Shown here one piece after another: positions 1,965-20,123 of a stretch of 32,048 nt of DNA. Source of the DNA: Gemmatimonadota bacterium (lineage in GTDB: Bacteria > Gemmatimonadota > Gemmatimonadetes > Gemmatimonadales > Gemmatimonadaceae). Location of the stretch: contig CANIWQ010000023.1 of assembly GCA_947471365.1 (NCBI GenBank), positions 1 to 32,048 on the forward strand, given 5' to 3'. The notes beneath the pieces are model-generated. The model saw nothing but the letters and a program-made list of their open reading frames with translations. It had not been told where the DNA came from and did no database searches. Each line of letters starts with the position of its first letter. The first letter of the stretch is position 1. The position numbers were made by a program, and so were the translations under genes.

Positions 1965-2619
1965 TCATTTTCGCTCGAGCGGCCGCGTGCCGTTATCCGC
2001 GGCGGAGCGTGCGTCATCCGACCTCGTGCCGGACATTCTCGACACGGGGGTGGATCGTTTGCCGTCGAGCGGGCAGTTTAGTGCCGCGTCGATTTCCGGG
2101 CTCGTGCTGTTTGCCCTCGAGTTGTTTGCCGCGCCGCTGACCTTCGGCATTACGTTGGTGGTGTCGGTGCTGTTCTGGTGGATGCTCGACCAGCCGTGGT
2201 CCGGCCGGCGCAAGCGGACGCGGCGGCGCGGGATTACGTCGCGATTGCTCTACTTGAGTACGATTCTGCTGATCGGGATGTGGCTGACGGTGATGTTGAT
2301 TTTTCGGGCGAGTGATCCGACACTCTCGTCGGGATTTTCCGCCACGCTGCCGACGGCGATGTTTGGTGTGGACATTGGCGCGCTGTCGGCGTTGAATGGC
2401 ATGCGGCAATACCGAGCGAGTACGGCGCCAATCGACATGGGGCAGTCCAGCATTGCGCCATTCAGTTTGTTTGCGCACGGCGTGGCGTCGACGATCGCCA
2501 TTAGCCTGTTGGCGTATTCGGTGGTGCTGGGGCGTCGGCGCTTGCGCCGCCGTCTACGGGAGGCGGAAATGCGCGGTGGTGGCGGGGGCGGAGCATCGCG
2601 CCGCATCATCGATTCGTAG
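1954..2619 (+). CDS. Small membrane protein of unknown function in the glycan locus
   Basis: A 221-residue protein that I do not recognise as a named family. The ATG at 1954 is chosen because it overlaps the end of the kinase gene by 11 bp, as in a translationally coupled operon; an upstream in-frame start at 1897 would lie deeper inside the kinase gene. Three hydrophobic segments are visible, near residues 45-72, 93-115 and 175-197. A basic stretch (RRKRTRRR) follows the first, and the C-terminus is basic and glycine-rich (GGGGGG). Its position between a BY-kinase and an O-antigen ligase-like gene suggests a role in polysaccharide assembly, but nothing in the sequence shows a catalytic function. 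Confidence 0.75.
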   Translation: MPADHFRSSGRVPLSAAERASSDLVPDILDTGVDRLPSSGQFSAASISGLVLFALELFAAPLTFGITLVVSVLFWWMLDQPWSGRRKRTRRRGITSRLLYLSTILLIGMWLTVMLIFRASDPTLSSGFSATLPTAMFGVDIGALSALNGMRQYRASTAPIDMGQSSIAPFSLFAHGVASTIAISLLAYSVVLGRRRLRRRLREAEMRGGGGGGASRRIIDS

Positions 2620-2634
2620 CGGAGCGTCTCGCGT

Positions 2635-4167
2635 ATGAGTCGTGTGCGCGTGGAGCCGCCTCGCCCCGTGGCAGCGCCGTTTGTGGCGCCGTCGGTGGGG
2701 TTGCGGCCGCGCGTGGCGCAACGGCGGACATCGGTCAACGTCGTTCTCGTGGGTGGGTTTGCCCTGCTCTCGCTGTTGCTCTTGGCAGGCGCTGGTGGCC
2801 GTCCCGCCGCGATCGTGTACGCCGTCGCTGCGGGAGTTGTCGCCTTGGTGCTGCACACGCGGGATCCGGTGGCGTACGTCAGCTTCACGCTGTGGATGTG
2901 GTTCTTGTCGCCATTCGTGCGTCGCGTGCTCGACATGCACCACGGATGGAACCCGACGAGCCCCGCGTTGCTCGCGCCGCAGTTCGCTGCCGCCGTGGCG
3001 GTGTTGACGCTGCTGCGTCGGGCGCGGTCGCTTCGAAACCCGCTGTTCACACCGTACTTGTTCGTCTTTGCCGCGCTGGCGTATGGATATTCGGTGGGGA
3101 TCATCAACGCCGGCGTCGTGCCCGCCACGTATGCCCTCGTGACATGGCTTGCTCCGGCCTTCTTTGGGCTTTTTCTTGCGGTTGAGTGGCGACGCTATCC
3201 TGCGATGCGTGAAGAGGTGATGCGCACATTTCGCATCGCGCTGCCACTGCTTGCGGCTTACGGGGTGTATCAGTTTGTGCGGCTTCCACAATGGGATGCC
3301 GGCTGGATGCGGAACGCCGACATGCGGAGCATCGGAATTCCGTTGCCTTTTCTCGTGCGCGTGTTCGGAACCTTGAACACGCCGGGACCTTTTGCGGCCG
3401 TGCTGCTGACGGGCGTGCTGCTGATTCTTCCGACCAAGGGGTGGTTTCGGTATGTGTCGGTGGCGGTGTCGCTGGTCGCGCTGTTGCTCACCCGCACGCG
3501 TTCCGCCTGGGTGGCATTCATTGTTGGTCTGATCGTGTCGCACCTGTCGCAACCGCTCGCCCATATCCCCAAGCGCACCATTACGCTCGTTGCCGTGGCT
3601 CTCATGGCACTTCCCCTCGCGACGATGCCGCAGTTTCGATCGTCGATTGCCTCGCGCCTGAACACGTTTTCGAATCTTCGTGGGGATAACAGTTTCATGA
3701 AGCGTGTTGCCTTTTCGTCCGTCACGGCGAGCAATATTGTCGAATCGGCGGAGGGCGCCGGCCTCGGATCCACGGGCGGCGCGACCAAACTGTCCGCGGT
3801 TAAAGGGTTACGGTCCCTCGATAATGGGTTTCTCGAAATATTCTACGTGCTCGGCTGGCCGGGGGGGACGCTGTTCTTCTTGGGAATCGCTGGCATGCTG
3901 ATCCAGTCGTCACGTTTTGCCGAGACCCGAGCGGATGGATTCGCCGGCTCGGCGCGGGCCATCGCCGTGGCCCTGTTGTCGATGATTCCAGTGGGCGACG
4001 TGTTTACGGGCGCCACCGGATTGTTGCTGTGGTCCATGGTGGGGCTGGGCATCAGTGCGCACGCGTATCATAAGACCACCGGCCTCGCGATCAAGTCGCA
4101 AGCCCGTCAGTTTGCCGAGCGGCAGCGGGCACGGATGATGACCGCCCGCGTGCCGTCTGTCACCTGA
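2635..4167 (+). CDS. O-antigen ligase / polymerase-like membrane protein
   Basis: A 510-residue polytopic inner-membrane protein with about ten or more hydrophobic helices. A central segment (LLLTRTRSAWVAFIVGLIV) fits the conserved Wzy_C/WaaL-type motif in which an Arg-Ser follows a helix before a large periplasmic loop. The loop, roughly residues 330-400, carries the motif GLGSTGG and a DNGFLEI segment typical of this superfamily, where a conserved acidic/aromatic D-N-x-(F/Y) element precedes the last helices. Such proteins polymerise repeat units or ligate glycan to a carrier. The start is 15 bp after the previous stop with a GGAG element upstream. Polymerase and ligase cannot be told apart from sequence alone. 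Confidence 0.85.
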   Translation: MSRVRVEPPRPVAAPFVAPSVGLRPRVAQRRTSVNVVLVGGFALLSLLLLAGAGGRPAAIVYAVAAGVVALVLHTRDPVAYVSFTLWMWFLSPFVRRVLDMHHGWNPTSPALLAPQFAAAVAVLTLLRRARSLRNPLFTPYLFVFAALAYGYSVGIINAGVVPATYALVTWLAPAFFGLFLAVEWRRYPAMREEVMRTFRIALPLLAAYGVYQFVRLPQWDAGWMRNADMRSIGIPLPFLVRVFGTLNTPGPFAAVLLTGVLLILPTKGWFRYVSVAVSLVALLLTRTRSAWVAFIVGLIVSHLSQPLAHIPKRTITLVAVALMALPLATMPQFRSSIASRLNTFSNLRGDNSFMKRVAFSSVTASNIVESAEGAGLGSTGGATKLSAVKGLRSLDNGFLEIFYVLGWPGGTLFFLGIAGMLIQSSRFAETRADGFAGSARAIAVALLSMIPVGDVFTGATGLLLWSMVGLGISAHAYHKTTGLAIKSQARQFAERQRARMMTARVPSVT

Positions 4168-4731: not shown

Positions 4732-5868
4732 ATGATTCCCGTGAACGAGCCGGTGATCGGCGAGAGTGAGCTGGCGAATGTGACGGAGTGCATCCGCACG
4801 GGCTGGATCTCTTCCGCTGGCCGGTTTATTGATGCCTTTGAAGAGGGATGGGCATCGTACTGCGACCGCACGCACGGCGTGGCCGTCGCCAATGGGACGG
4901 TGGCGCTGCGGTTGGCCGTGGCGGCGCTCGATTTACAGCCGGGTGACGAGGTGATCATGCCAACATTCACGATCATTTCGTGCGCGGCCGCCGTGATCGA
5001 CTGTGGCGCTGTGCCGGTGCTGGTGGATGCAGATCCAGAAACGTTCGGGATGAACGTCACGCAGGTCGCGGCTAAGATTACGCCGCGAACGCGGGTGATT
5101 ATGCCGGTGCACTTGTATGGTCATCCCGTCGACATGGATCCGCTGCTCGCGCTCGCGGCGGAGCATCATTTGGCGGTAATCGAGGATGCGGCGGAAGCGC
5201 ACGGCGCCGAGTACCTGACCTCGTTTGGTCGGTCGGCTCCCACGTGGCGTCGCTGCGGCAGTTTTGGCGACGTGAGCGTCTTCAGCTTCTACGCCAACAA
5301 GCTGATCACGACCGGCGAAGGCGGCATGCTGGTGACGGATAGCGATACGATCGCCGCGCGCGCCAGATCGCTGCGCAACCTGTGCTTTCAGCCGACGCGT
5401 CGCTTCTATCACGAGGAGCTCGGCTTCAACTTCCGGCTTACGAACCTGCAGGCGGCTGTGGGTGTGGCGCAGCTCGCGCGTATGCCTGAGGTGTTGAAGC
5501 AAAAACGGTGGATGGGGCAGGCGTATGGTGAACGGCTCGCGGGGATACCGGGGCTACAGATTCCCATGACCAAACCGTGGGCGCGGCACGTCTTCTGGAT
5601 GTACGGACTCGTCGTGGATGAAAGCACGGGCCTCGATGCCGTGTCCTTTGCTGGTCGATTGGCGGCCAAGGGCGTGGAGACGCGTCCGTTCTTCCTCGGC
5701 ATGCATGAGCAGCCGGTGTTGCAGCAGCGCGGCCTCTTTGCCGGCGAGCACTACCCGGTGGCCGAACGTCTGGCACGGCAGGGGTTGTATCTCCCATCGG
5801 GCGTCGCGTTGACGCCAACTCAACTGGACGCCGTGTGCCTGGCGGTGCGTGAGGTGCTTGCGGCATGA
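4732..5868 (+). CDS. DegT/DnrJ/EryC1/StrS family PLP-dependent sugar aminotransferase
   Basis: A full-length (378-residue) fold-type I aminotransferase of the kind that converts keto-sugars on nucleotide carriers to amino-sugars. The expected PLP lysine is K190 in SFYANKLITTGEGG, and the cofactor-ring aspartate is in EDAAEAHGA (D152). The N-terminus (IPVNEPVIGESE, then GWISSAGRFIDAFEE) resembles perosamine synthase-type members, so GDP-perosamine or a related 4-amino sugar is a reasonable guess, not a demonstration. The start has AGGA eight bases upstream. The stop overlaps the next gene by ATGA, indicating translational coupling to the methyltransferase. Confidence 0.93.
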   Translation: MIPVNEPVIGESELANVTECIRTGWISSAGRFIDAFEEGWASYCDRTHGVAVANGTVALRLAVAALDLQPGDEVIMPTFTIISCAAAVIDCGAVPVLVDADPETFGMNVTQVAAKITPRTRVIMPVHLYGHPVDMDPLLALAAEHHLAVIEDAAEAHGAEYLTSFGRSAPTWRRCGSFGDVSVFSFYANKLITTGEGGMLVTDSDTIAARARSLRNLCFQPTRRFYHEELGFNFRLTNLQAAVGVAQLARMPEVLKQKRWMGQAYGERLAGIPGLQIPMTKPWARHVFWMYGLVVDESTGLDAVSFAGRLAAKGVETRPFFLGMHEQPVLQQRGLFAGEHYPVAERLARQGLYLPSGVALTPTQLDAVCLAVREVLAA

Positions 5869-6690: not shown

Positions 6691-7533
6691 ATGAGTCGCG
6701 TGGCGATGAGTCGTGAGGCCATCGAACACAACCGCGCGGCGCATGATCAACACGCGGAGTCGTACGACAGCGGCCATCCGGAGATTTTCAATCCGGTGGA
6801 GCAGGAGCGTCTCGCGGATGCGCTGGCGCGTGCGGTGCGCGCTGCCGGTACGGCTGACGGAACGGTTCGCGCGCTCGATGTAGGATGTGGCTCGGGAAAT
6901 CTGACCAACCATCTCCTGCGTCTCGGTGCCCGCGTGACCGCAGCGGACCTCTCGACGAAACTGCTTGAGGTGACGCAACGCCGCTTTGGTGCCACCGGCC
7001 GACTCGAGACCCAAGTGCTCAATGGTACCGACCTACGGCCGATACCAGACGGCATGTGCGACGTGGTGGCAGCGTATTCGGTGCTGCATCATGTGCCGGA
7101 CTACTTGGCGCTGGTGGCAGAAATGGCGCGCGTGACGCGACCGGGCGGTGTGGTGTATATCGATCACGAGCGGAACGATGCGTCGTGGACGAGTGAGCGT
7201 TACCGGCAATTTCAGCGCGAGGCGGTGGTGTGGCCTCCGCGTCGGTGGTACTACTGGTTGCAGCCCAGCCGGTACTGGAATCGGATCAAGCCCAAGCTCC
7301 AGTGGCGGTCGTGGAAGGATCCGCGCTGGATGCCTGAGGGTGACCTTCACATCTGGCCCGACGATCATATTGAATGGGCGCGTATTGTGGAGGTGCTCGC
7401 GTCGTGCGGATGTCGGCCGATGGTGAGTGAAGACTATCTGCTTTTTGAGTCGCGGTATCAGCGTCCGGTTTGGGAATCGTGGCGTACTCGGACGAGCGAC
7501 ATGCGGCTGCTCATTGCGCGCAAGGACGGATGA
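6691..7533 (+). CDS. Class I SAM-dependent methyltransferase (second copy type)
   Basis: A 280-residue methyltransferase with motif I DVGCGSGN (residues 63-70), acidic strand-2 end (VTAADLSTKLL), and a strand-4 segment followed by YSVLHHVPDY, as in Methyltransf_11/25 proteins. Three in-frame ATGs compete: 6673, 6691 and 6706; the latter two are each followed by the same AGTCG. I chose 6691 because GGTGA lies 4 bases before it. The C-terminal part is tryptophan- and arginine-rich (WPPRRWYYWLQPSRYW), an uncommon extension that may bind a lipid-linked or polymeric acceptor. It is not closely similar to the preceding methyltransferase. The next gene overlaps its stop. Confidence 0.85.
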   Translation: MSRVAMSREAIEHNRAAHDQHAESYDSGHPEIFNPVEQERLADALARAVRAAGTADGTVRALDVGCGSGNLTNHLLRLGARVTAADLSTKLLEVTQRRFGATGRLETQVLNGTDLRPIPDGMCDVVAAYSVLHHVPDYLALVAEMARVTRPGGVVYIDHERNDASWTSERYRQFQREAVVWPPRRWYYWLQPSRYWNRIKPKLQWRSWKDPRWMPEGDLHIWPDDHIEWARIVEVLASCGCRPMVSEDYLLFESRYQRPVWESWRTRTSDMRLLIARKDG

Positions 7534-8693
7534 TGTCGTCTGGTATACGCCCGATTCGTGTCTTCTTTCCGTGCACGGGGCTCGGTCGCGTGGCGCGCGG
7601 GTTTGAGGCGTTCACGCGCGATTGTGCGCACGCCCTGCGCGGGCGTGAGGAGCTGGCGCTGACGGTGTTTGGTGGCGGGCACGATCTGACCGCGGGTGAG
7701 CGACGCATTGCCTCGCTGTCGCGACGGGGTGTGGCGGCACGGCTGTTGGGCAAGCTGGTGCATCGCGATCCGTACTTTGTGGAGCAGGCGACCTTTGCCG
7801 CGGCATTTCTTCCAGCGCTGATTGCCGGCGATCCGGACGTGGTGTACTTCGCGGATCTCAACGTGGGTAATGCGTGCTGGCATTGGCGGCGGGTGAGCGG
7901 TCAACGTTTTCGCTTGCTGTTTTACAACGGTGGCGCGACCACGAAGCCCTTCACGCGTTGTGACCTCGTGCAGCAGGTGAGCCCGGAGCACTACGACGCC
8001 GCGCTCGCGCGCGGTGAAGCCGCTGAGCGGCACGTGTTGTTGCCGCACGGGCTGGATGTGCCCGCGCACTTTACGCCAGTCACGAACGAGGAACGGCGGG
8101 CGACGCGCGCGGCGCTTGGCGTGCCGCTCGACGGCCCGTTGGTGCTGAGTGTCGGCATGCTGGACCAACAGGTGAAGCGCATGGATCTGGTGATTCGTGA
8201 GGCCGCGGCGTTGACATCGATTCAGCCCCATGTGCTCTTGCTGGGCGAAGAGACGCCGGAAACGCCCGTCGTACGTGCGGTGGCCGAACGGGCGCTTGGC
8301 GCGGGGCGCTACACCATGGGCACCGTCAATCGGTCGCTGGCGATGGCGGCGTACCGTGCGGCGGATGCGTTTGTGCTCGCGTCGCCGCGCGAAGGGTTCG
8401 GCCTCGCGTATCTGGAAGCGCTGATGAGCGGCGTGCCCTGCGTCGTGCAGGATACGCCGACGACGGCGTATCTGTACGGCTCCTTTGGGCATCGCGCCGA
8501 TCTCTCCGTGCCCGGCGTTCTGGCGTCGCACTTGGAGCGGATGCTGGCCACGCCGCCGGACTCGGCCATGGCCGTAGCGCAACACGCCTGGGTGCGTGAC
8601 CGATTTGGGTGGGACACACTGGCGCCGCGTTACGCCGCGATGTTGCACGCCTGTGCGGAAGGACGCCGCCCCGTGGTGATGCCGGCCGACTAA
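7533..8693 (+). CDS. GT-B fold glycosyltransferase (family 1/4 type)
   Basis: A 386-residue glycosyltransferase. The C-terminal nucleotide-sugar domain has the hallmark E-x7-E segment (EGFGLAYLEALMSGVPC). An N-terminal acceptor domain carries a GLGRVARGFE loop. The start was set at the second ATG of ATGATG (7533), since AAGGA at 7522-7526 sits 6 bases upstream; a longer in-frame reading back to 7470 lies inside the previous gene. It probably transfers one sugar during repeat-unit assembly at the inner face of the membrane. Its stop overlaps the stop of the convergent gene on the minus strand. Confidence 0.88.
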   Translation: MSSGIRPIRVFFPCTGLGRVARGFEAFTRDCAHALRGREELALTVFGGGHDLTAGERRIASLSRRGVAARLLGKLVHRDPYFVEQATFAAAFLPALIAGDPDVVYFADLNVGNACWHWRRVSGQRFRLLFYNGGATTKPFTRCDLVQQVSPEHYDAALARGEAAERHVLLPHGLDVPAHFTPVTNEERRATRAALGVPLDGPLVLSVGMLDQQVKRMDLVIREAAALTSIQPHVLLLGEETPETPVVRAVAERALGAGRYTMGTVNRSLAMAAYRAADAFVLASPREGFGLAYLEALMSGVPCVVQDTPTTAYLYGSFGHRADLSVPGVLASHLERMLATPPDSAMAVAQHAWVRDRFGWDTLAPRYAAMLHACAEGRRPVVMPAD

Positions 8694-9864: not shown

Positions 9865-11109
9865 TCAGCCGGTCACGTCCCACGAGTGGTCAACGAGAAA
9901 GTACCTCGGCGCGGCTGGGTTGGTGCGTCCCGTGCCGTAGAAGTCGCCAGGCTCCACGTTCATCGCACCGGCGTGCCACACGAAATCCGCGATGTCGCTG
10001 TTCACGGTGCTGAACAACGAGACGCGGTAGGTGCCAGGTTCAAAGGGCAGTCTCGGTATGCTACACGTGAACACGCCGGATCCGGGAACGCTGACAAAAT
10101 CTCCGCGCTGTGCGTCGCTCGAGAGCTCGCAGAGCTGTTCGTCCACGAACCCGTGGATCACGACGTCGATGTGTACGTTCTGCAGCGCGACGGCATCGGC
10201 ATGGTATCGGACTTCTAGTCGCACGCTGTCGCCGGACCGGATCAAGCCGCCGCCGTTGGCCGCATTCACCACGGCGAACGATTCAAAGCGGAGCGCTCCG
10301 TTCCCCGTACGGTCCGTCCGATTCTGCAACGGGATCTCGCCAATCGTTTCAATGGAGCGCAGATACTGCTGCACCACAGCTCCCGCTGGTCCATCGGCGG
10401 AGACGTGTCCTCCCTCAAGCAGAATTCCGCGCGCGCAGAGCGACGTGACGGCGACCATGTTGTGGCTCACAAACAACACGGCGCGCCCTTCCTCCCGCGC
10501 CACCTCGCCCATCTTGCCGAGGCATTTGCGTTGGAACGCGGCGTCGCCGACGGCGAGCACTTCGTCCACCACGAGAATTTCGGGGTTGAGATGCGCGGCC
10601 ACGGCAAAGGCGAGGCGCACGTACATACCGCTACTGTAGCGCTTGACCGGCGTGTCGAGAAAGCGCTCGATCTCGGCGAACGCCACAATCTCGTCAAAGC
10701 GCTGCTGAATCTCGTGACGGCGCATACCGAGGATGGTGCCGTTGAGAAAAATATTCTCACGGCCGGTGAGCTCCGGATGAAACCCCGTGCCCACTTCGAG
10801 CAGACTGCCGATGCGGCCGTACAGACGAATTTCACCTTCGGTGGGCCAGGTGATACGCGAGAGCAGTTTGAGGAGGGTGCTCTTGCCTGCGCCGTTGCGG
10901 CCAATGATGCCGACCGTTTCGCCGCGCTGAATGTTGAATGACACATCCCGGAGTGCCCATAACAGATCGGTCGCGTCCGTCGAACGGCCGGATACTGTCT
11001 TGATCAGTGCTTCGCGAATGGTCGTCGCCCCAGCATCCATGCCCAAGCGATAGGCCTTGGAGAGGCCTTCCACCGCAATCGCGAGTTCGCTCGGCGGTTT
11101 AGATGACAT
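9865..11109 (-). CDS. Polysaccharide ABC transporter ATP-binding protein with C-terminal substrate domain (Wzt-like)
   Basis: A 414-residue ATPase. Walker A GRNGAGKST is at 70-78, the signature YSSGM at 158-162 and Walker B ILVVDE at 178-183. Residues beyond about 250 form a beta-rich C-terminal domain (FVSVPGSGVFTCSIPRL, FEPGTYRVSLF), as in Wzt proteins that recognise the non-reducing end of the exported glycan. Walker A is preceded by the usual ALRDVSFNIQRGE segment. The ATG at 11109 overlaps the permease stop by 11 bp, and a start at 11127 would overlap more. With the permease it should form a glycan exporter at the inner membrane. Confidence 0.93.
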   Translation of the reverse strand: MSSKPPSELAIAVEGLSKAYRLGMDAGATTIREALIKTVSGRSTDATDLLWALRDVSFNIQRGETVGIIGRNGAGKSTLLKLLSRITWPTEGEIRLYGRIGSLLEVGTGFHPELTGRENIFLNGTILGMRRHEIQQRFDEIVAFAEIERFLDTPVKRYSSGMYVRLAFAVAAHLNPEILVVDEVLAVGDAAFQRKCLGKMGEVAREEGRAVLFVSHNMVAVTSLCARGILLEGGHVSADGPAGAVVQQYLRSIETIGEIPLQNRTDRTGNGALRFESFAVVNAANGGGLIRSGDSVRLEVRYHADAVALQNVHIDVVIHGFVDEQLCELSSDAQRGDFVSVPGSGVFTCSIPRLPFEPGTYRVSLFSTVNSDIADFVWHAGAMNVEPGDFYGTGRTNPAAPRYFLVDHSWDVTG

Positions 11110-11923
11110 CGGCCAGCCGGCGCTCAAATCGCGCGAAGAAGATACAGCCCACGGCGAGCGCCACGAGTGCGCCGGCCCCAGACATCATCACCGACACAGC
11201 TGACGGCGGCGCCGTGCCCGCCACCGACCAGCGAAAGCCGTCGAGCATGCCCGCGAGCGGGTTCAGCACAAAGAGCGCACGAAAGCGCTCGGGCACTGCC
11301 GCCGTACCGTATGCCACGGGACTGGCGTACAGCAGCAACTGGACGAGCACCGGCAGCGCGTACTGCAAATCGCGGTACCGCACCGACAGCGCCGCCGAGA
11401 GCGTACCGATGCCGAGTCCGGTGAGGAGGAGGAGGGCGACCCACACGGGGAGTAGCAACAATGGCCAGCCGAGCGGAACGCGGAACATCACCATCAGGAC
11501 AACGAGCGAGCCCATGCCGACCAGGAAATCCATGGCCGTGCTCCAGAGCGCGGACAGGGGAAGGACGAGGCGCGGAAAGTACACTTTAGTGACGAGGCTG
11601 CTTTGCGCGAGCAGCGATCCGCTGCTGCGAACGAGCGCGTTTTGGAATGTGGTCCACGCAATAAAACCCGCGTAGGCAAAGAGGAAATACGGCACGCCAT
11701 CACTCGGGAGCTTGGCTACTTTGCCGAACACGACCGTGAACAGTCCGCCGGCAATCAGCGGTTGCAGAACCACCCACACGACGCCGAGGAGCGTCTGGCG
11801 GTAGCGTAGCGTGACGTCGCGCCGGCCAAGCGCCGCGGCGAGGTCGCGGAAGCGCCACACTTCCGAAAAGTCCGGGAAGAGGCGATTCCCAACTGGCCGG
11901 ATGACCTCGAGTGGTTCGCTCAC
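11099..11923 (-). CDS. Polysaccharide ABC transporter permease (Wzm-like, ABC-2 type)
   Basis: A 274-residue membrane protein with about six helices. The N-terminal amphipathic segment contains LFPDFSEVWRFRDLAAALGRRDVTLRYRQTLLGVVWVVLQPL, described here only in part: DLAAALGRRDVTLRYRQ is the ABC-2 exporter signature before the first helix. The frame is open much further upstream, to 12475, but that extension would run antisense through the next gene and looks non-coding. The GTG at 11923 gives the normal family length, though no clear ribosome site precedes it. It pairs with the ATPase gene, which overlaps its end by 11 bp. Confidence 0.88.
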   Translation of the reverse strand: MSEPLEVIRPVGNRLFPDFSEVWRFRDLAAALGRRDVTLRYRQTLLGVVWVVLQPLIAGGLFTVVFGKVAKLPSDGVPYFLFAYAGFIAWTTFQNALVRSSGSLLAQSSLVTKVYFPRLVLPLSALWSTAMDFLVGMGSLVVLMVMFRVPLGWPLLLLPVWVALLLLTGLGIGTLSAALSVRYRDLQYALPVLVQLLLYASPVAYGTAAVPERFRALFVLNPLAGMLDGFRWSVAGTAPPSAVSVMMSGAGALVALAVGCIFFARFERRLADVI

Positions 11924-12004
11924 GCTCGACAGGGGGTTGGTCGCGGTCCGTGCATATGCTGTGGATTCTACCCGGCGCGCCCTCGTAAGGAAGGGCTGTG
12001 CCGC

Positions 12005-13000
12005 TTGGCTCAGGACCGCCCCTCGGTGCATACTGTGGCTGTGCCAACCGTCTCGGTTCTCGTGCCCACTTGGCGCCGCCCGGAATCTCTCGTGCGGTGC
12101 CTGCGGGCGCTTGCCGCTCAGACCCAGCCGCCGGCGGAGATTGTCGTGGGGCTGCGAGCCGGCGACTCGGAAACAGCGCTGGCGCTCGCGACGCTCACCC
12201 GAGAGCTGGGCGTCCCCGTACGGCAGGCGATGACCGCCGAATCTGGGGTAGTGGCGGCTATGAATGCCGCCCTGGATCTCTGCACTGGGGGCGTGATTGC
12301 GCTCACCGACGACGACGCGGAGCCCCGCCCGGACTGGCTGGAGCGATTGGGGCGCTGCTTTGACGACCCCACCGTGGGCGGGGCAGGTGGTCGGGACTGG
12401 CAGCCGGTGGAGCGGGGCGCTCGCGAGGAGGTGGGGCGGCTCCAATGGTTTGGTCGCGTGATTGGCCATCACCATCTGGGGGTAGGGCCGGCGAGGCCGG
12501 TGGATGTGCTGAAAGGGGTCAACGCGGCTTTTCGGGCACCACTGCTAAGGGCGCTGCGATTTGACAGCCGATTGCAGGGGGCGGGAGCGCAGATGTACTG
12601 GGAGTTGGCGCTCTGCCTGCCTTTGCGCCGTGCCGGATGGACGCTGGTGTACGATCCCGCGATTGCCGTGGAACATCACATTGCGCCGCGGCACGATGCC
12701 GACCAGCGGCATCGCGGCACATTCGTGCCCGAGCCGCAGGTGCAGGCGGTGCACAACGAGACATTGATTCTCCTTGAGCATCAGCGGGGGTTCCGGCGTT
12801 TGGCGTTCGTGGTGTGGGCGCTGCTGGTTGGGACTCGTATGGAGCCGGGGCTCGCGCAGGTGCCTCGTCTCTGGCTGATGGGCGATGTCCTTGCCCTGAC
12901 GCGGTGGCGCTGGACGCTCGTAGGACGCGTCCGGGGATGGATGGCGTGGCGCGCGTGTGGGCGCGATCTGGTGCGACGTGTCCCCCATCCTGCCGTGTGA
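12005..13000 (+). CDS. Glycosyltransferase family 2
   Basis: A 331-residue GT-A enzyme. It opens with VSVLVPTWRRPESLVRCL, the classical GT2 first strand, and the metal/nucleotide site is TDDDAEPRPDW with DDD at 102-104. A later acceptor-side region includes WELALCLPLRRAGW and EHHIAPRHD. The start used is TTG at 12005, preceded by AAGGAAGGG at a spacing of 9; GTG codons at 12026 and 12035 are alternatives. It is divergent from the exporter permease, with an 81-bp gap that holds no convincing promoter (a weak TAGAAT on the minus strand, 11965-11970). It should add a sugar in the cytoplasm. Confidence 0.9.
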   Translation: MAQDRPSVHTVAVPTVSVLVPTWRRPESLVRCLRALAAQTQPPAEIVVGLRAGDSETALALATLTRELGVPVRQAMTAESGVVAAMNAALDLCTGGVIALTDDDAEPRPDWLERLGRCFDDPTVGGAGGRDWQPVERGAREEVGRLQWFGRVIGHHHLGVGPARPVDVLKGVNAAFRAPLLRALRFDSRLQGAGAQMYWELALCLPLRRAGWTLVYDPAIAVEHHIAPRHDADQRHRGTFVPEPQVQAVHNETLILLEHQRGFRRLAFVVWALLVGTRMEPGLAQVPRLWLMGDVLALTRWRWTLVGRVRGWMAWRACGRDLVRRVPHPAV

Positions 13001-13088: not shown

Positions 13089-14276
13089 ATGACATGTGCG
13101 GCGCGCGTCCCCCCAACACTTTTACCGCCGGCTCTCGTGACACCGTTCTCACTGGCCTTTGTGGCGCACGATGTGCACCGGCAGGGCGGCATGGAGCGCG
13201 CCGCGGCCGAGGTGCTGTCGCGTCTGGCCACGCGGATGTCGGTGACGGTGATCGCGCGCTCGTGCGCGTTGGGCAAGGCGCCCGTCCGCTGGATGCCGGT
13301 GACGGGCCCCACGCGTCCGGCGCCGCTGCGCACGTGGGCGTTTGCGCGCGCGGCGCGCGCCGCGGAACGGCGCGCGGGGTGCACCATCACGAACAGCATT
13401 GGCGCGGCGGCGATCGACGCGGACGTGATTACGGCGCAGTTCTGTCATGCGGCATTCACCAAACGTTTTGGCGGACTGCGGGGTGGCTCGGGGGTGCGGG
13501 CACTGTATCAGCGCTTTGCGCAGTCGCGATTTGTGGCGGAAGAGCGCGTGGCCTATGGGTCGCGGCGATTGCGGCAGGTCATTGCCGTGTCGCGCGGTAC
13601 GGCGCGCGAGCTGCAGGAATCGTACGGGGTGCCGGCGTCGCGCATCACGGTGGTGCCAAACGGTGTGGACCGCGCGGTATTTCGCCCGGCGGCCGACGCG
13701 GCGGCGCGTTTGGCTCTGCGAGCGCCACTCGGCTTGCCGCGCGATGCGTTCTTAGCGTTGCTCGTGGGCGGCGACTGGGAGCGCAAAGGGGTGCGCGATG
13801 CGATCGATGCGATGGCCGGGATTGCTGACGGACATCTCGTGGTGCTGGGCCGCGGCGACGTGGCCGCGATGCAGGCGCACGTGTCACGCGCCGGCGCGGC
13901 TGGACGCGTGACCTTTGCGCCGCCGAGCCGGACGCCGGAGGCGTACTACGCCGCGTGTGACGCGTTTTGTTTTCCCTCGCGCTACGAGGCGTTTTCACTG
14001 GTGACGCTCGAGGCCGCGGCGGCGGGGCTGCCGATTGTGGCGCACGCGATCAACGGCACCGAAGAGTTAGTGCGCGATGGTGAGAACGGCTGGCTCGTGC
14101 CCTTTGGCCCGGATGCGTTGCGCGAAAAACTGGTGTTGCTGCGCGATGATCGCGCGTTACGCGAGCGGTTGTCGGCCGGCGCGGTGGCGTCGTCGGCGCG
14201 CTACGACTGGGATCGGATTGCCGACGAACAGTACGCCGTGTTTGCCGCGGCGGCGGCGGAACGGAGTCGCGGTTAG
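13089..14276 (+). CDS. Glycosyltransferase family 4
   Basis: A 395-residue GT-B enzyme. The N-terminal acceptor loop is HDVHRQGGMERAAAEVL. The interdomain region reads VIAVSRGTARELQESYGVPASRITVVPNGVD when divided at its usual breaks, typical of GT4. The donor domain has FPSRYEAFSLVTLEAAAAGLPIV, matching E-x7-E. The ATG at 13089 is closely preceded by GAGGG; a GTG near 13137 would give the more usual short N-terminus. It is followed without gap by the asparagine synthetase fusion, so one transcript is likely. Confidence 0.9.
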   Translation: MTCAARVPPTLLPPALVTPFSLAFVAHDVHRQGGMERAAAEVLSRLATRMSVTVIARSCALGKAPVRWMPVTGPTRPAPLRTWAFARAARAAERRAGCTITNSIGAAAIDADVITAQFCHAAFTKRFGGLRGGSGVRALYQRFAQSRFVAEERVAYGSRRLRQVIAVSRGTARELQESYGVPASRITVVPNGVDRAVFRPAADAAARLALRAPLGLPRDAFLALLVGGDWERKGVRDAIDAMAGIADGHLVVLGRGDVAAMQAHVSRAGAAGRVTFAPPSRTPEAYYAACDAFCFPSRYEAFSLVTLEAAAAGLPIVAHAINGTEELVRDGENGWLVPFGPDALREKLVLLRDDRALRERLSAGAVASSARYDWDRIADEQYAVFAAAAAERSRG

Positions 14277-17200
14277 ATGTGCGGCATAATCGGCGTTGTG
14301 AAGGAAGGGGCGGCCGCGTCGCGCGACCGACTCGTGGCGGCGCGCGAACTCATGTGGCACCGCGGCCCAGATGACGCCGGCGTGTGGGCCGACGAGCACG
14401 CCTGCGTCGGGGCGCGACGACTGTCGATTATTGATCTCTCAAAGACTGGGCACCAACCGTTGGTCAGTTCCGACGCCAAGCGCGTCTTGGTGTTCAATGG
14501 CGAGATCTACAACTTCCGTGCGCTCCGTAAGGAACTTGAGGGAGATTTTGTTTTTCAGTCGTACTCGGATTCTGAAGTCGTGCTCCACGGCTATCGGAAA
14601 TGGGGCGGCCCCGGGCTCGTGCAGCGGCTCGATGGCATGTTCGCATTTTCGTTGTGGGACGAAGACACGCGCACGCTCTTTGCGGCGCGCGACCGCGCGG
14701 GGAAGAAACCGTTTTATTATCGGCATGAAGACCGCCAGTTTCATTTTGCGTCCACGTTGAATGCACTGCTGGCATTTTTGCCGGGTACGCCGCCCGTGGA
14801 CCCGATGGCCGTTGACGCGTTCCTTGTGTATCAGGCCGTGCCGTCGCCCTTGAGCATTTTTCGTGGCGTTCGCCAATTACGACCGGCGCACCATCTGACA
14901 TTCCACGCGAACACCGGTGCGTGTCGTGAAGAGCGGTACTGGAAGCTCTCGTACGCTACCAAGACCGATGAATCGGAAGCGGAAGTGCTCGAGCACATTG
15001 AACGGTTGGCGCGCGCGGCGGTCACCAAGCGTTTGGATAGCGACGTGCCGGTGGGGCTGTTTCTCTCGGGCGGTGTGGACTCCTCGCTTGTGGCGGCGCT
15101 GGCGTCGCAGGAAAGCACCAAGCCCATCGAAGCCATGACGCTCGGGTTCGACGAACCGGCATTCGACGAACGACAGTACGCGCGCGCCGTGACGCAGCAC
15201 CTGAAGATGCCGCTCCACGAAGAGACGCTGCGCCCGGCGCTGGTGGCCGACTTGCCGTCCATCGTCTGGCATTACGGGCAGCCCGTGGCTGACGTATCGA
15301 TTGTGCCGAACCACTATTTGGCGCGTGCGGCGCGACGGTGGATGACCGTGGCCCTGAACGGCGATGGTGGCGACGAACTCTTTGGCGGCTATGCGCGGCC
15401 GATGCTCGCGCGCATGACGGCGCCGTATCGGCGCGCGGTACCGGAGCTCATGCGCAACGCCCTTGGTGGGCTCTTCGCTCAGACATCGGACGGCCCGCTG
15501 CGGCGCGTCGGGTTGCTGGCACGCGCCGGCGCCGGCAGCTCCGCGGACGCCTTTACGTATGATCGCGCCTTTCGGCCGTTCCGCGATGAAGCGTATTCCG
15601 ACGTGCTCAAGAATCTCGTGGGCAACACGCATCCGGACGCGCTGTATCGGACGGTGTGGAATGAGGCGGACGGTCTCGACGATGTGGATCGTGCGCTCTA
15701 CGGCGATTTTAACACCTATCTCCCCGACCAGCTGCTCGCGAAAGCGGATCGTGCGTCGATGGCACACAGTCTTGAAGCGCGCTCACCCCTGCTGGATCGC
15801 GCGTTGGTCGAGTACGCCGCGACAATTCCCACGGCGCTCCGTCTTCGGCATTTCCAGACGAAGTACCTGCTCAAGAAGCTCACCGGGCGTTTCGTGCCCC
15901 CCGAGGTGCTCTTCCGTCGCAAGCGCGGGTTCGTCATGCCGGCCGCCCGATGGCTGCGCGGTGAACTCGCCCCGTTTGTACGCGCCGCCCTCGACAACCG
16001 CACCTTCTTTGATCGCGGCTGGGTGCGGCCCGAGTTCGTGCGCCGCATTCTCGCCGAGCACTTTACGGGCGTGCGCGACTGGGGTGAGCAGATCTGGACG
16101 TTGCTCGTGCTCGAAGTGTGGGCGCGCCTCGTCCTCGATCGTACGCTCGATCGCGACGCGCGCATGGATGATTTTCTGCGCAAGCCCGAGCGCGCGCGAC
16201 GCACCACGCTCCGCACACTGCAGCTCGGGATGGAGTGGTTTTCCGAGAAACCCGGCGGCTTGAATCGCGTGTACTTCGAGCTGATGCGCCACCTCCCCGA
16301 CGCGGGCGTGGAGGTGCACGGCCTCGTAGCCGGCACGTCGCAGGTGACGGTGGACGCCCGTGGCATGATCGAAGGGTTTGCCCCGCACTCCGAGCGACTG
16401 TTGCCCCGTCTCCTCGCGGTGCGACGAAAGGCTGGACCGTTGCTCCGCAGCGATCCTGGCGTGTTGGTCGTGAGCCATTTTGCGCTCTACACCGCGCCGT
16501 TGCTCGACGAACTCGCCGACCATCCGCTCGTCGTGCACTTTCAGGGGCCGTGGGGACTTGAAGGGCGAGCGGAACGTCAGTCGAAGTTCACCGAGATGGC
16601 CAAGTCCGCCGTCGAGCGGGCGGTGTATTCGCGCGCGAAAGCCTTCATCGTGCTCTCGACGCCCTTTGGCCGAATTCTCGAATCGCGCTTTGGCATTCCA
16701 CGCGAACGCATTCATGTGATTCCCGGTGGTGTGGATGTGCCACGCTTCGCGATTCAGGAGTCGGCTGAGGAATGCCGCCTGCGACTGGACTGGCCCACGG
16801 ATCGGCCAATTGTTCTCGCCGTACGACGCCTCATGCGCCGCATGGGGCTCGACGACCTCATTGCGGCCGTGCCGCAGCTCCGCGAGACCATTCCGAATGT
16901 GTTGGTGCTGATCGCGGGACGCGGACCGATTGCCGGCGAGCTGCAGGCGCGCATTGATGCCGCTGGACTCGCCGATCACGTGCGCCTGCTCGGATTTGTG
17001 CCAGATGCCTTGTTGCCGCGGGCATACCGCGCGGCCACCATCACGATCGTGCCGACCGTGGAGCTCGAAGGGTTTGGATTGATTGTCGCGGAGTCACTGG
17101 CCGCTGGCACGCCCGCGATGGTCACGCCGGTCGGTGGGTTGCCGGAGGCGGTGTCGGGACTGTCGCCGAGCTTGGTGTTGCCGAGTACCGGCGCTGCGGC

Positions 17201-17345
17201 GATTGCCACGGGGCTTGCGGAGGCGTTGAGTGGTCGGATGGTGCTCCCTGACGCGCGCACGTGCACCGAGTACGCGCGCCGCCACTATGACTGGCCGGTG
17301 ATCGCGGAGCGCACACGGCTCGTGTACGAAGAGGCGATGCGATGA
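14277..17345 (+). CDS. Asparagine synthetase-like amidotransferase fused to a GT4 glycosyltransferase
   Basis: One uninterrupted 1022-codon frame that joins two enzymes. Residues 1 to about 630 form a complete AsnB-type protein. It has the N-terminal nucleophile Cys2 (MCGIIGVV), glutamine-site segments RLSIIDL and FNGEIYN, the ATP loop SGGVDSS at 264-270, and NGDGGDELFGGY in the synthetase domain. From about 650 a GT4 protein begins (MEWFSEKPGGLNRVYFELM). It continues through VIPGGVDVPRF to the donor motif EGFGLIVAESLAAGTP near 930 and a complete C-terminus. In surface-glycan loci AsnB-like proteins commonly amidate uronic acid carboxyls, and the fusion would couple that to glycosyl transfer. 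The substrate is not shown. Its stop overlaps the next gene (ATGA). Confidence 0.92.
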   Translation: MCGIIGVVKEGAAASRDRLVAARELMWHRGPDDAGVWADEHACVGARRLSIIDLSKTGHQPLVSSDAKRVLVFNGEIYNFRALRKELEGDFVFQSYSDSEVVLHGYRKWGGPGLVQRLDGMFAFSLWDEDTRTLFAARDRAGKKPFYYRHEDRQFHFASTLNALLAFLPGTPPVDPMAVDAFLVYQAVPSPLSIFRGVRQLRPAHHLTFHANTGACREERYWKLSYATKTDESEAEVLEHIERLARAAVTKRLDSDVPVGLFLSGGVDSSLVAALASQESTKPIEAMTLGFDEPAFDERQYARAVTQHLKMPLHEETLRPALVADLPSIVWHYGQPVADVSIVPNHYLARAARRWMTVALNGDGGDELFGGYARPMLARMTAPYRRAVPELMRNALGGLFAQTSDGPLRRVGLLARAGAGSSADAFTYDRAFRPFRDEAYSDVLKNLVGNTHPDALYRTVWNEADGLDDVDRALYGDFNTYLPDQLLAKADRASMAHSLEARSPLLDRALVEYAATIPTALRLRHFQTKYLLKKLTGRFVPPEVLFRRKRGFVMPAARWLRGELAPFVRAALDNRTFFDRGWVRPEFVRRILAEHFTGVRDWGEQIWTLLVLEVWARLVLDRTLDRDARMDDFLRKPERARRTTLRTLQLGMEWFSEKPGGLNRVYFELMRHLPDAGVEVHGLVAGTSQVTVDARGMIEGFAPHSERLLPRLLAVRRKAGPLLRSDPGVLVVSHFALYTAPLLDELADHPLVVHFQGPWGLEGRAERQSKFTEMAKSAVERAVYSRAKAFIVLSTPFGRILESRFGIPRERIHVIPGGVDVPRFAIQESAEECRLRLDWPTDRPIVLAVRRLMRRMGLDDLIAAVPQLRETIPNVLVLIAGRGPIAGELQARIDAAGLADHVRLLGFVPDALLPRAYRAATITIVPTVELEGFGLIVAESLAAGTPAMVTPVGGLPEAVSGLSPSLVLPSTGAAAIATGLAEALSGRMVLPDARTCTEYARRHYDWPVIAERTRLVYEEAMR

Positions 17346-18493
17346 GTGCGCCGCGCCGAGTGCTGTTTGTTGATCACGCGGGCGTGTTGGGCGGCGCGGA
17401 GTTGTCGCTGCTGGATCTGGCGATGGCGTTCGGGGATCGCGCACGCGTGGCGTTACTGGCCGACGGTCCATTTGCCGACCGTCTGCGCGCACGAGGCGTG
17501 CGCGTGACCACGACGCCGATGGGTGCGCTCGCCGACGTACGCAAGGATACGCGGCTTCCGTCGTTTGGTGCGCTCGCCGCCATGTGGCGGACGGCCGGCG
17601 CGTTGGGTGCGACGGTGGATCCCTCGGAATTGCTCTGTGCGAACTCGCAGAAGGCGTTCGTCGTCAGCGCGCTCGCCGGCTGGCGCGCGCAGCGCCCCGT
17701 CGCGTGGATTTTGCGGGACATTCTGGCGGCACCGCATTTTAGTGGGGCGAACATTCGGGCCGTGATCACGCTCGCGAACTGGCGTGCCTGCCGTGTGATT
17801 GCCAACTCACAGGCGACGGCCGATGCGTTTGTGGCAGCCGGCGGAAGAAAATCGCTCGTGTGTGTGGTGCACAACGGCATTGATGCCGCACCGTTTGATG
17901 TCGTGACGCCGGCCGATGGTCAGGCGGTGCGTCGTGCGCTGCACATTCCGGATGATGCCTTTACCGTGGCGATGCCGGGGCGCTTCCATGCGTGGAAAGG
18001 GCAGCAGGTACTACTCGCTGCGCTCGCGCAGGTGCCCAACGTACACGCCATCATTGCGGGCGCGCCGCTCTTTGGCGAACAGGCGTTCGCGGACGAACTC
18101 CGCGCACGCGCCGCTCGGCTTGGCGTAGCGGACCGCGCGCATTTCACCGGATTCCGCGACGACATTCCCGCCCTGCTGAGCGCTGCCAATGTCGTGGTGC
18201 ATGCGTCCACGCTCCCAGAACCATTTGGTCGTGTGGTGGTGGAAGGGATGTTGGCGCACCGACCGGTCGTGGCCAGTAACGCGGGCGGCGTCCCCGAACT
18301 CATTGTGGACGGCGAGTCTGGCGTGTTGGTGCCGCCGGCAGACGCGCGCGCGCTCGCGGCGGCCATCGCGGCGCTGCGTGATGACGCGCCGCGCGCGGCG
18401 CGTATTGCGGCGGCAGGCGCTCGGCGCGCGCGAACGTTGTTCACCGTTGGCGCGATGGCCCGCGGAATTGAAGAGGCGCTGGCAGCCTGTTGA
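17342..18493 (+). CDS. Glycosyltransferase family 4
   Basis: A 383-residue GT-B enzyme beginning MSAPRRVLFVDHAGVLGGAE, with the acceptor-domain GG loop. It continues to RVIANSQATADAFVAAGG and VVHNGIDAAPFD at the domain junction. The donor-binding element is LPEPFGRVVVEGMLAHRPVV, with the E-x7-E spacing. The start ATG overlaps the fusion-gene stop. It is the last gene of the glycan block before a convergent outer-membrane protein gene, and a perfect 9-bp hairpin spans its stop codon. The C-terminal third is very alanine/arginine-rich, in keeping with local GC content. Confidence 0.9.
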   Translation: MSAPRRVLFVDHAGVLGGAELSLLDLAMAFGDRARVALLADGPFADRLRARGVRVTTTPMGALADVRKDTRLPSFGALAAMWRTAGALGATVDPSELLCANSQKAFVVSALAGWRAQRPVAWILRDILAAPHFSGANIRAVITLANWRACRVIANSQATADAFVAAGGRKSLVCVVHNGIDAAPFDVVTPADGQAVRRALHIPDDAFTVAMPGRFHAWKGQQVLLAALAQVPNVHAIIAGAPLFGEQAFADELRARAARLGVADRAHFTGFRDDIPALLSAANVVVHASTLPEPFGRVVVEGMLAHRPVVASNAGGVPELIVDGESGVLVPPADARALAAAIAALRDDAPRAARIAAAGARRARTLFTVGAMARGIEEALAAC

Positions 18494-18529: not shown

Positions 18530-19378
18530 CTAGTTCTTGGCCAGCTTGAAGCCGCCGAAGCCCATCAGCACACGCAGGGTGCCGCCCGTGGGACCCAAAT
18601 CTGGTCCACCGAACACTTCGTGCCCACGGTAGGTCCACGACGTGCGATTGGGTGTGATGGCTGACCCGAAACGCAGTCCGATGGTGAAGCCCGTGTGCGA
18701 GGTCGATTCCTTGAGCAGCAGCCAGTCAATGCCGATTCCCGGCTGCACCATGATGTAGTTGCCCAAGATCTGACTTTCGAGACCGGGGTTGAGAATGATC
18801 TCGTCAAACGTCGGATCAGTCCGCACCGAGACGGTGCCGCCGCCATCACGGTTTTTCAGTGACAGCCTCACATTGCCGCCGCCAATTCCAAGGTACGGAA
18901 AAATGGTCAAGCGCCAGGTGGTGTACACCGGTACAGCTGCCGTCGCCATGAAGTACGACGCTTCCAGTCGATTCGTCTTTCCTTTCGGGCTCGTCTCGTA
19001 TCCAAAATCACCGTAGTGCCACTCGCCGCCGACCATCACGCGCCCGAGTGACACATAGCCACCGACGCCGTAGGTATACGCGTCGTTGGAGAGGCTCGAA
19101 AAGCCCGTTCCGCCGGCGAGATCGGTGCGATTGAAATGCGCGTTCAGGCTCGACACATCCATACCCATCGAGCCGACGGTGATGTAGCCGTGCGAGAACG
19201 GCACAATAAAATCGCTCACCGGCTTGGTGGGCTCGGTGGAGGCCTGTGCGAATAACGAACCGGCGCTCACGGAGAGCGTGCTGGCCAGCACCATGGATAG
19301 GCGACGAATCGTCGACGTCACGCGCGGCAGGTTCAAGCGTTTCGGGGGAAGAAGTCTCGATGAATCAAAACGAAGCAT
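18530..19378 (-). CDS. Outer-membrane beta-barrel protein, exported
   Basis: A 282-residue protein with an N-terminal export signal: a basic region (TSTIRRLS), a hydrophobic stretch (MVLASTLSVSAGSLFAQ) and a likely cleavage near residue 45. The mature part alternates short hydrophobic strands with glycine- and asparagine-rich turns (YTYGVGGYVSLGRVMVGGEWHYGD), and strands such as LTIFPYLGIGGGNVRLSL look like beta-hairpins. No named family was recognised. The ATG at 19378 was used; the frame is open to 19630, and M29 (19294) would leave an unusually uncharged signal peptide. It stands alone, convergent with the glycan block and divergent from the next gene. Confidence 0.75.
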   Translation of the reverse strand: MLRFDSSRLLPPKRLNLPRVTSTIRRLSMVLASTLSVSAGSLFAQASTEPTKPVSDFIVPFSHGYITVGSMGMDVSSLNAHFNRTDLAGGTGFSSLSNDAYTYGVGGYVSLGRVMVGGEWHYGDFGYETSPKGKTNRLEASYFMATAAVPVYTTWRLTIFPYLGIGGGNVRLSLKNRDGGGTVSVRTDPTFDEIILNPGLESQILGNYIMVQPGIGIDWLLLKESTSHTGFTIGLRFGSAITPNRTSWTYRGHEVFGGPDLGPTGGTLRVLMGFGGFKLAKN

Positions 19379-19628
19379 CGGCCGAAAGCTAGCCAATTTG
19401 CGGGGGGATAGGGGCAAAATGGGGTGAGTTGGAGGGCTGGGGGGGGTCGTACCGACGAGTGGCGGACACTCTGGGGCGCTTGGGTCCTCTGAGACAGACG
19501 ATTCAGGGCGACGGCTCGGTTCAGATGGGGGACTGGCCCGTGAGGCACCGCTTCCGTGTATTTTCCAAGGCGATTGCCTCGGCACGTGACGGGGCGCGGG
19601 CACAAAACGACCGCTTGGAGTGCTTCCC

Positions 19629-20123
19629 ATGCCGCTGGTTCCCTTTGAAAAGCTACCGGATGACGCCCGAATTTGGGTGTTTGGCGCCGCCGCGCCGATC
19701 GACGAGGTGGATGCCCCGCGACTCCTTGCCGCCGTGGATGCTTTTTTGTTTGACTGGAAGGCCCACGGTCATCCGCTGACCTGCGGGCGCCATTGGCGCG
19801 ACGACCATTTTTTGGTGGTCGGGGTGGATCAGCGGACGGAAGGTGCGAGCGGGTGCTCGGTGGACGGGCTGTTCCGCACGCTCCAGTCCATTGAGAAGGG
19901 AATCGGTACCTCGCTCGTGGCGGGCGGGCTGGTCTTCTTTCGTGACGAGGTCGGACTCGTGCATGCGCTGCCACGCGCGGCGTTCGAACGACTGGCGGCG
20001 ACGGGGCATGTCGGGAGCGCCACGACGGTTTTTGATCAGACCATCACGACCGTGGCCGAGTACAACGATCGCTTCGTGACGACCGCTGGCGCTGGGTGGC
20101 ATAAGACGCTGCTGGGCGTTTAG
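19629..20123 (+). CDS. Conserved small protein of unknown function (often labelled 'ABC transporter ATPase' in Bacteroidetes)
   Basis: A 164-residue protein. The N-terminus VPFEKLPDDARIWVFGA, the AVDAFLFDWKAHGHPL segment and DQRTEGASGCSVDGLFRTLQ match my recollection of a family common in Bacteroidetes. That family usually carries the label ABC transporter ATPase, although no Walker A, signature or Walker B motif is present here either. The ATG at 19629 has GGAG (19617-19620) 8 bases upstream, so the upstream start at 19620 is less likely. It has no signal peptide or membrane helix. The 250-bp region before it (19379-19628) shows no convincing promoter or RNA; it is G-rich at the left end. 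Function unknown. Confidence 0.8.
   Translation: MPLVPFEKLPDDARIWVFGAAAPIDEVDAPRLLAAVDAFLFDWKAHGHPLTCGRHWRDDHFLVVGVDQRTEGASGCSVDGLFRTLQSIEKGIGTSLVAGGLVFFRDEVGLVHALPRAAFERLAATGHVGSATTVFDQTITTVAEYNDRFVTTAGAGWHKTLLGV

Follow-up and report, generated by a model that had tools for sequence, protein, structure and literature searches.

Uronamide sugars occur in several surface polysaccharides, and the stage at which the AsnB-like enzyme acts on them, i.e., on the nucleotide sugar, the lipid-linked chain or the polymer, is unsettled; the position of WbpS in its pathway, for example, is not known (PMC7468200). In the Gemmatimonadaceae contig analyzed here (32,048 nucleotides, hereafter the window), an AsnB-like amidotransferase is fused to a single GT4 glycosyltransferase, which singles out one transfer step and makes the question of stage directly testable. 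The same family also contains the GT4 alone and the two enzymes as a pair of genes overlapping at ATGA, and thus provides a natural series for asking whether an enzyme fusion couples two reactions or stays neutral.

An earlier sequence-only reading described the gene at 14277-17345 (forward strand) as an AsnB-type protein continued in one frame by a GT4 protein, and this architecture was borne out by translation, Pfam and 17 full-length orthologues. The frame runs from ATG to TGA with zero internal stops and encodes 1022 amino acids with the N-terminus MCGIIG. The Pfam search proposed in that reading found GATase_7, Asn_synthase and Glycos_transf_1 in this one protein. The N-terminal glutaminase domain (GATase_6/7, residues 1-166, 14277-14774) matched GATase_7 (2.9e-41) and GATase_6 (1.6e-38) at residues 31-166. 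It is followed by the Asn_synthase (ATP-pyrophosphatase/synthetase) domain (residues 241-617, 14997-16127; 6.2e-92, 309.4 bits versus a cut-off of 21), whose match reaches the last profile position. A linker between the enzymes (residues 618-644, 16128-16208), defined from alignments, the AlphaFold2 model and dN/dS, leads to the GT4 N-terminal Rossmann domain (about residues 645-825, 16209-16751), which was recognized by Pfam (Glyco_transf_4, 8e-19, residues 659-821) and in the AlphaFold2 model, and to the C-terminal donor-binding domain (Glycos_transf_1, 2.7e-29, residues 836-1002, 16782-17282). The same Pfam families were matched in 17 of the 17 full-length orthologues.

Residue conservation supports these assignments. 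Glutaminase residues C2, R48, N74, G75, E76 and D98 are invariant in the 17 orthologues (57-97% identity), as are S264-S269 of the ATP loop (SGGVDSS, 264-270), D366/E367 in the segment NGDGGDELFGGY (361-372), K529, and the glutamates of the GT4 EX7E motif, E931 and E939. The N-terminal half accordingly has what defines an AsnB-type amidotransferase (Cys2 with the glutamine-binding residues, an SGG(V/L)DSS loop and Asn_synthase above cut-off), and the C-terminal half has what defines a retaining GT4 (a GT-B fold, Glyco_transf_4 and Glycos_transf_1 above cut-offs, and EX7E). Given the invariance of these GATase, ATP-loop and EX7E residues, both halves look catalytically competent.

Foldseek matched the halves to separate solved structures, the AsnB half to TsnB9/AsnB and the GT half to MshA-type GT4 enzymes, and no solved structure among the matches listed covered both. 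The AsnB half has its fold and catalytic residues in common with E. coli AsnB (1ct9) and TsnB9 (7ylz), although it is only 22-24% identical to them and they lack a GT domain. Similarly, the GT half shares its fold and EX7E with the retaining GT4 enzymes MshA, PimA and HepE, which have no amidotransferase domain; the donor-phosphate loop of the fusion reads RRLMRRMG.

We considered whether an artefact of assembly or sequencing had joined two genes, given that the assembly consists of 222 contigs, of which the window is one. However, a search for the same architecture in other genomes recovered the in-frame junction in 19 independently assembled Gemmatimonadaceae species, and no conserved stop or frameshift was found at residues 630-650, the region where the sequence-only reading had located the risk. 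Furthermore, in genus g1, to which the window belongs, change in the linker (here residues 618-646) is almost only synonymous, with a dN of 0 and dS of 0.53 between the window's genome (G000) and G006, a dN/dS of 0.05 for G000/G016, and a dN of 0 for G007/G012. An untranslated linker would not show such a pattern; therefore, the linker is translated as protein in g1 and is under protein-level constraint there. The linker is looser in genus g13 (dN/dS of 0.43-0.45), and its length varies between genera while it stays in frame in the 19 species. Recurrence in 19 independent assemblies, together with the constraint in g1, excludes a chance or assembly join, and the probability of an artefact is vanishingly small. 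Structure prediction, which had been suggested for the linker, gave an AlphaFold2 model of the 1022-residue protein with an overall pLDDT of 92.1, in which only residues 638-641 fall below 50; confidence in the predicted domain arrangement is only moderate (pTM of 0.67).

The surface-polysaccharide setting that the sequence-only reading proposed held up as well, as GT4, Wzm/Wzt, Wzc and Wzy-type genes surround the fusion. Annotation and relatives' loci identify two conserved neighbours on the forward strand, a GT4 gene whose stop directly abuts the ATG of the fusion (g11, 13089-14276) and another whose start overlaps the stop of the fusion at ATGA (gene g13, 17342-18493), which together with the fusion make up a tight operon. 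Pfam and relatives' loci place a Wzc-like chain-length/tyrosine-kinase protein (GNVR and AAA_31, 9-1964), a Wzy/O-antigen-ligase-like membrane protein (2635-4167) and another GT4-type glycosyltransferase conserved in the locus (7470-8693) on the same strand; a DegT/LegC-like sugar aminotransferase (4732-5868, forward) was recognized by Pfam and family searches. On the reverse strand, family searches and relatives' loci indicate a Wzm-like ABC-2 polysaccharide transporter permease (11099-12475) and, with Pfam, an ABC transporter ATPase with a weak Wzt C-terminal domain (9865-11127). Two methyltransferases were also found in the locus by Pfam, and several locus genes recur around the fusion in relatives. 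Wzc/Wzy-type genes (9-4167) and Wzm/Wzt-type ABC export genes (9865-12475) thus share one locus, and they recur in relatives. The locus also contains, at 18530-19630 (reverse strand), a gene for a 366-residue protein with no Pfam match, which lies beside the GT triad in the majority of genomes that have the fusion or the GT alone.

What does the AsnB half amidate? Its best family model is TIGR03108, at 525.8 bits, which is below the cut-off of 816.9. This family includes WbpS, WbqG, which has been shown to be necessary for its uronamide, and PGN_1234, whose deletion eliminates a glucuronamide (PMC7468200). Like the N-terminal half of the fusion, these proteins combine GATase and Asn_synthase domains and are encoded in surface-glycan loci, whereas they stand alone and the fusion carries a GT4 on the same chain. 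The fusion also departs from the TIGR03108 group in its score and in that exosortase (PF09721) had no match in the window's genome, while it was matched in G072 and G030. No uronate-making gene was recognized within the window. Another contig of the same genome (G000:C86) encodes a UDP-glucose dehydrogenase, a second NDP-sugar dehydrogenase and an epimerase, so that uronic-acid donors are probably available, as judged by genes. Given these UDP-uronate genes and TIGR03108 as the best model, amidation of a uronic acid by the AsnB half is plausible.

Alternatively, the AsnB half might amidate a non-uronic target, such as an aminoacyl group, a lactyl group or a different acidic decoration of the sugar. 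Acceptors in the AsnB superfamily are varied; among the solved structures nearest to this half are those of the hydroxyamidotransferase TsnB9 and of beta-lactam synthetases. Along with the score below the TIGR03108 cut-off, the DegT aminotransferase and the two methyltransferases of the locus, which point to amino- and methyl-modified sugars, are consistent with such a target; a DegT aminotransferase is also encoded on another contig of the genome. The AsnB half reads NGDGGDE where E. coli AsnB has SGEGSDE, and this E-to-D change could mean another carboxylate substrate. Nevertheless, the best model has members with experimentally supported uronamide functions (PMC7468200), and we regard a non-uronic target as rather unlikely.

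The protein might instead be the cell's asparagine synthetase, fused by chance to a neighbouring glycosyltransferase. TIGR01536 (asn_synth_AEB) scored above its cut-off (444.6 versus 267.1 bits), and the genome yielded no second AsnB with Cys2; its other three GATase_7 matches are one GlmS-like protein, one AsnB-like protein without the N-terminal Cys, and one that is probably PurF (L002). TIGR01536 is a generic model, which also covers AsnB relatives with other functions. The asparagine synthetase B equivalog model, NF006949, reached only 265.9 bits versus a cut-off of 499, so E. coli AsnB is not the best family, and the gene lies inside an EPS operon. Furthermore, two genomes of the same genus (G014 and G008) retain GatB and AsnS although they show no close match to AsnB, which argues that the AsnB half is not the genus's required source of asparagine. 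A housekeeping role is therefore highly improbable. The AsnB-like protein without the N-terminal Cys (L004:1297-3090, contig C66) is nearest to lasso-peptide cyclase models and scores far below their cut-off.

The distribution of the gene bears on whether the fusion couples its two activities. The fused frame is present at full length in 17 Gemmatimonadaceae genomes (ten in g1, five in g13, and one each in g35 and g44), and the junction is intact in two further genomes cut by contig ends (G010 and G147), which brings the fused form to at least 19 species in four genera of this family of soil and water bacteria. Fused proteins of the four genera have 57-60% protein identity. Sister genus g14 (G030 and G065) has the orthologous AsnB and GT4 as separate genes that overlap at ATGA: the last nucleotides of its AsnB gene, whose product is 57-58% identical to the window's AsnB, are CGATGA, and the ATG within this overlap is the start codon of the orthologous GT4. 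A third g14 genome, G064, has the same overlap followed by an insert of about 200 nucleotides that keeps the GT frame open. This insert (L098:8697-8880) is repeat-like and separates the stop codon of AsnB from the conserved start of the GT4, with an open GT4 frame running through it from the former start at ATGA. Close homologues that were always two genes would have spoken against the sequence-only reading; instead, 17 are fused at full length and three are split. In six other family members, five g47 genomes and one g8 genome, the GT4 occurs without an adjoining AsnB, and in g47 the two GT4 genes that flank it are still the same as around the fusion. One family therefore contains the fused, the paired and the solitary form.

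More distant stand-alone relatives of the GT4 half, at 50-57% identity, were found in EPS loci of Burkholderia, Caballeronia, Azospirillum and Skermanella. They adjoin glycosyltransferase genes and, in the loci whose annotation or similarity allowed a check, Wzy-like genes; unlike the fusion, they have no AsnB fused or adjoining in the stretches examined. The Burkholderia locus found differs in gene order from Bcam1330-1341, so a link of the GT half to the Bep cluster was rejected. The six relatives and the proteobacterial EPS loci show that the GT4 half can exist without AsnB; its transfer therefore does not need an amidated sugar per se, and the two reactions are not obligately linked. No characterized close relative of the GT4 half was found.

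Phylogenetic analysis weakly rejected a single clade of all fused proteins in the AsnB tree (p-AU of 0.016) and in the concatenation (0.028), while the GT tree did not reject it (p of 0.13-0.15). Because fused genomes form no single clade in the AsnB tree, there was probably more than one change of the fused state. As far as these trees indicate, g14 may have split an ancestral fusion, or fusion may have arisen repeatedly. The join could have come about through a small shift where two genes overlapped at ATGA, or the pair could have arisen from the join by fission.

Such a small frameshift could also have joined two enzymes of the same operon neutrally, with no coupling beyond equal amounts and with each half acting on its own substrate in the same pathway. 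The split state fits this explanation, as its ATGA overlap already gives translational coupling (G030 and G065) and the g14 lineage keeps separate genes, and so do the different linker lengths between genera, the weak linker constraint in genus g13 and the lack of a single clade of fused genomes in the AsnB tree. However, the fused state persists across four genera whose proteins have diverged to 57-60% identity, and in g1 the constraint on the linker is strong. A neutral fusion is thus a real possibility, which we place somewhat short of an even chance.

Our results somewhat favour a real bifunctional enzyme of extracellular-polysaccharide assembly, which would amidate a carboxyl sugar and perform the adjoining glycosyl transfer. 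The N-terminal glutaminase, through Cys2, would free ammonia from glutamine, and the synthetase domain would activate a carboxylate with ATP for conversion by this ammonia to an amide, the carboxylate most likely being, by analogy with WbpS/WbqG, the one at C6 of a hexuronic acid. The C-terminal retaining GT4 would then carry out one transfer in the building of the repeat unit, which would put amidation and adjoining transfer on one chain in a 1:1 amount. The likeliest gain would be co-localization, or else a control step by which no unamidated intermediate is extended; a physical tunnel for the sugar is less likely. In a Helicobacter pullorum wbpS mutant, the uronate was transferred and the chain was not extended (PMC6025236), and this phenotype may serve as a model for gating by amidation. 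No glycan structure for these bacteria was found. We tentatively suggest, as a possible though doubtful refinement, that uronic-acid amidation coupled on one chain to the adjoining transfer forms a built-in gate on chain growth, in a lineage that keeps all three stages, i.e., transferase alone, overlapping pair and fusion.

Finally, we looked for the fusion outside the family. Profile searches of about 1,580 genomes in four phyla, in which only the best candidates were scored, found none; they covered 395 genomes of the window's phylum, 396 of Acidobacteriota, 392 of a planctomycete's phylum and 400 of the phylum of an Anaerolineae MAG, and with two best candidates per genome and strict E-values they could miss rare or very divergent fusions. 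When about 85,000 species genomes were scanned from peptide seeds, again with only the best candidates scored, the fusion turned up in Gemmatimonadota only, and no plasmid record covered 80% of the fused protein. Among the fetched loci, 121 AsnB C-termini were checked for in-frame tails, and no other AsnB-GT4 fusion was found; open frames of 900-1300 residues around other AsnBs were rejected as further fusions, as none had a GT4 in frame. The open-licence literature searched yielded no described protein that combines both halves. Each half comes from a well-known family, and the combined domain architecture is new.

An apparent full-length match in an acidobacterium (G571) was also rejected, as it consists of two same-frame genes parted by TAG. 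In that locus (L126:1495-4587), the ATG of the GT4 lies one codon past the TAG, and loss of this single stop codon would give an independent fusion. In addition, a genome with the same order as the window's (G054:C26) encodes an AsnB-like protein with an in-frame C-terminal methyltransferase (L068:1040-3709, reverse strand; Methyltransf_25, 4.6e-17), which is a second, different AsnB fusion in the same phylum, with a tail unrelated to the GT4.
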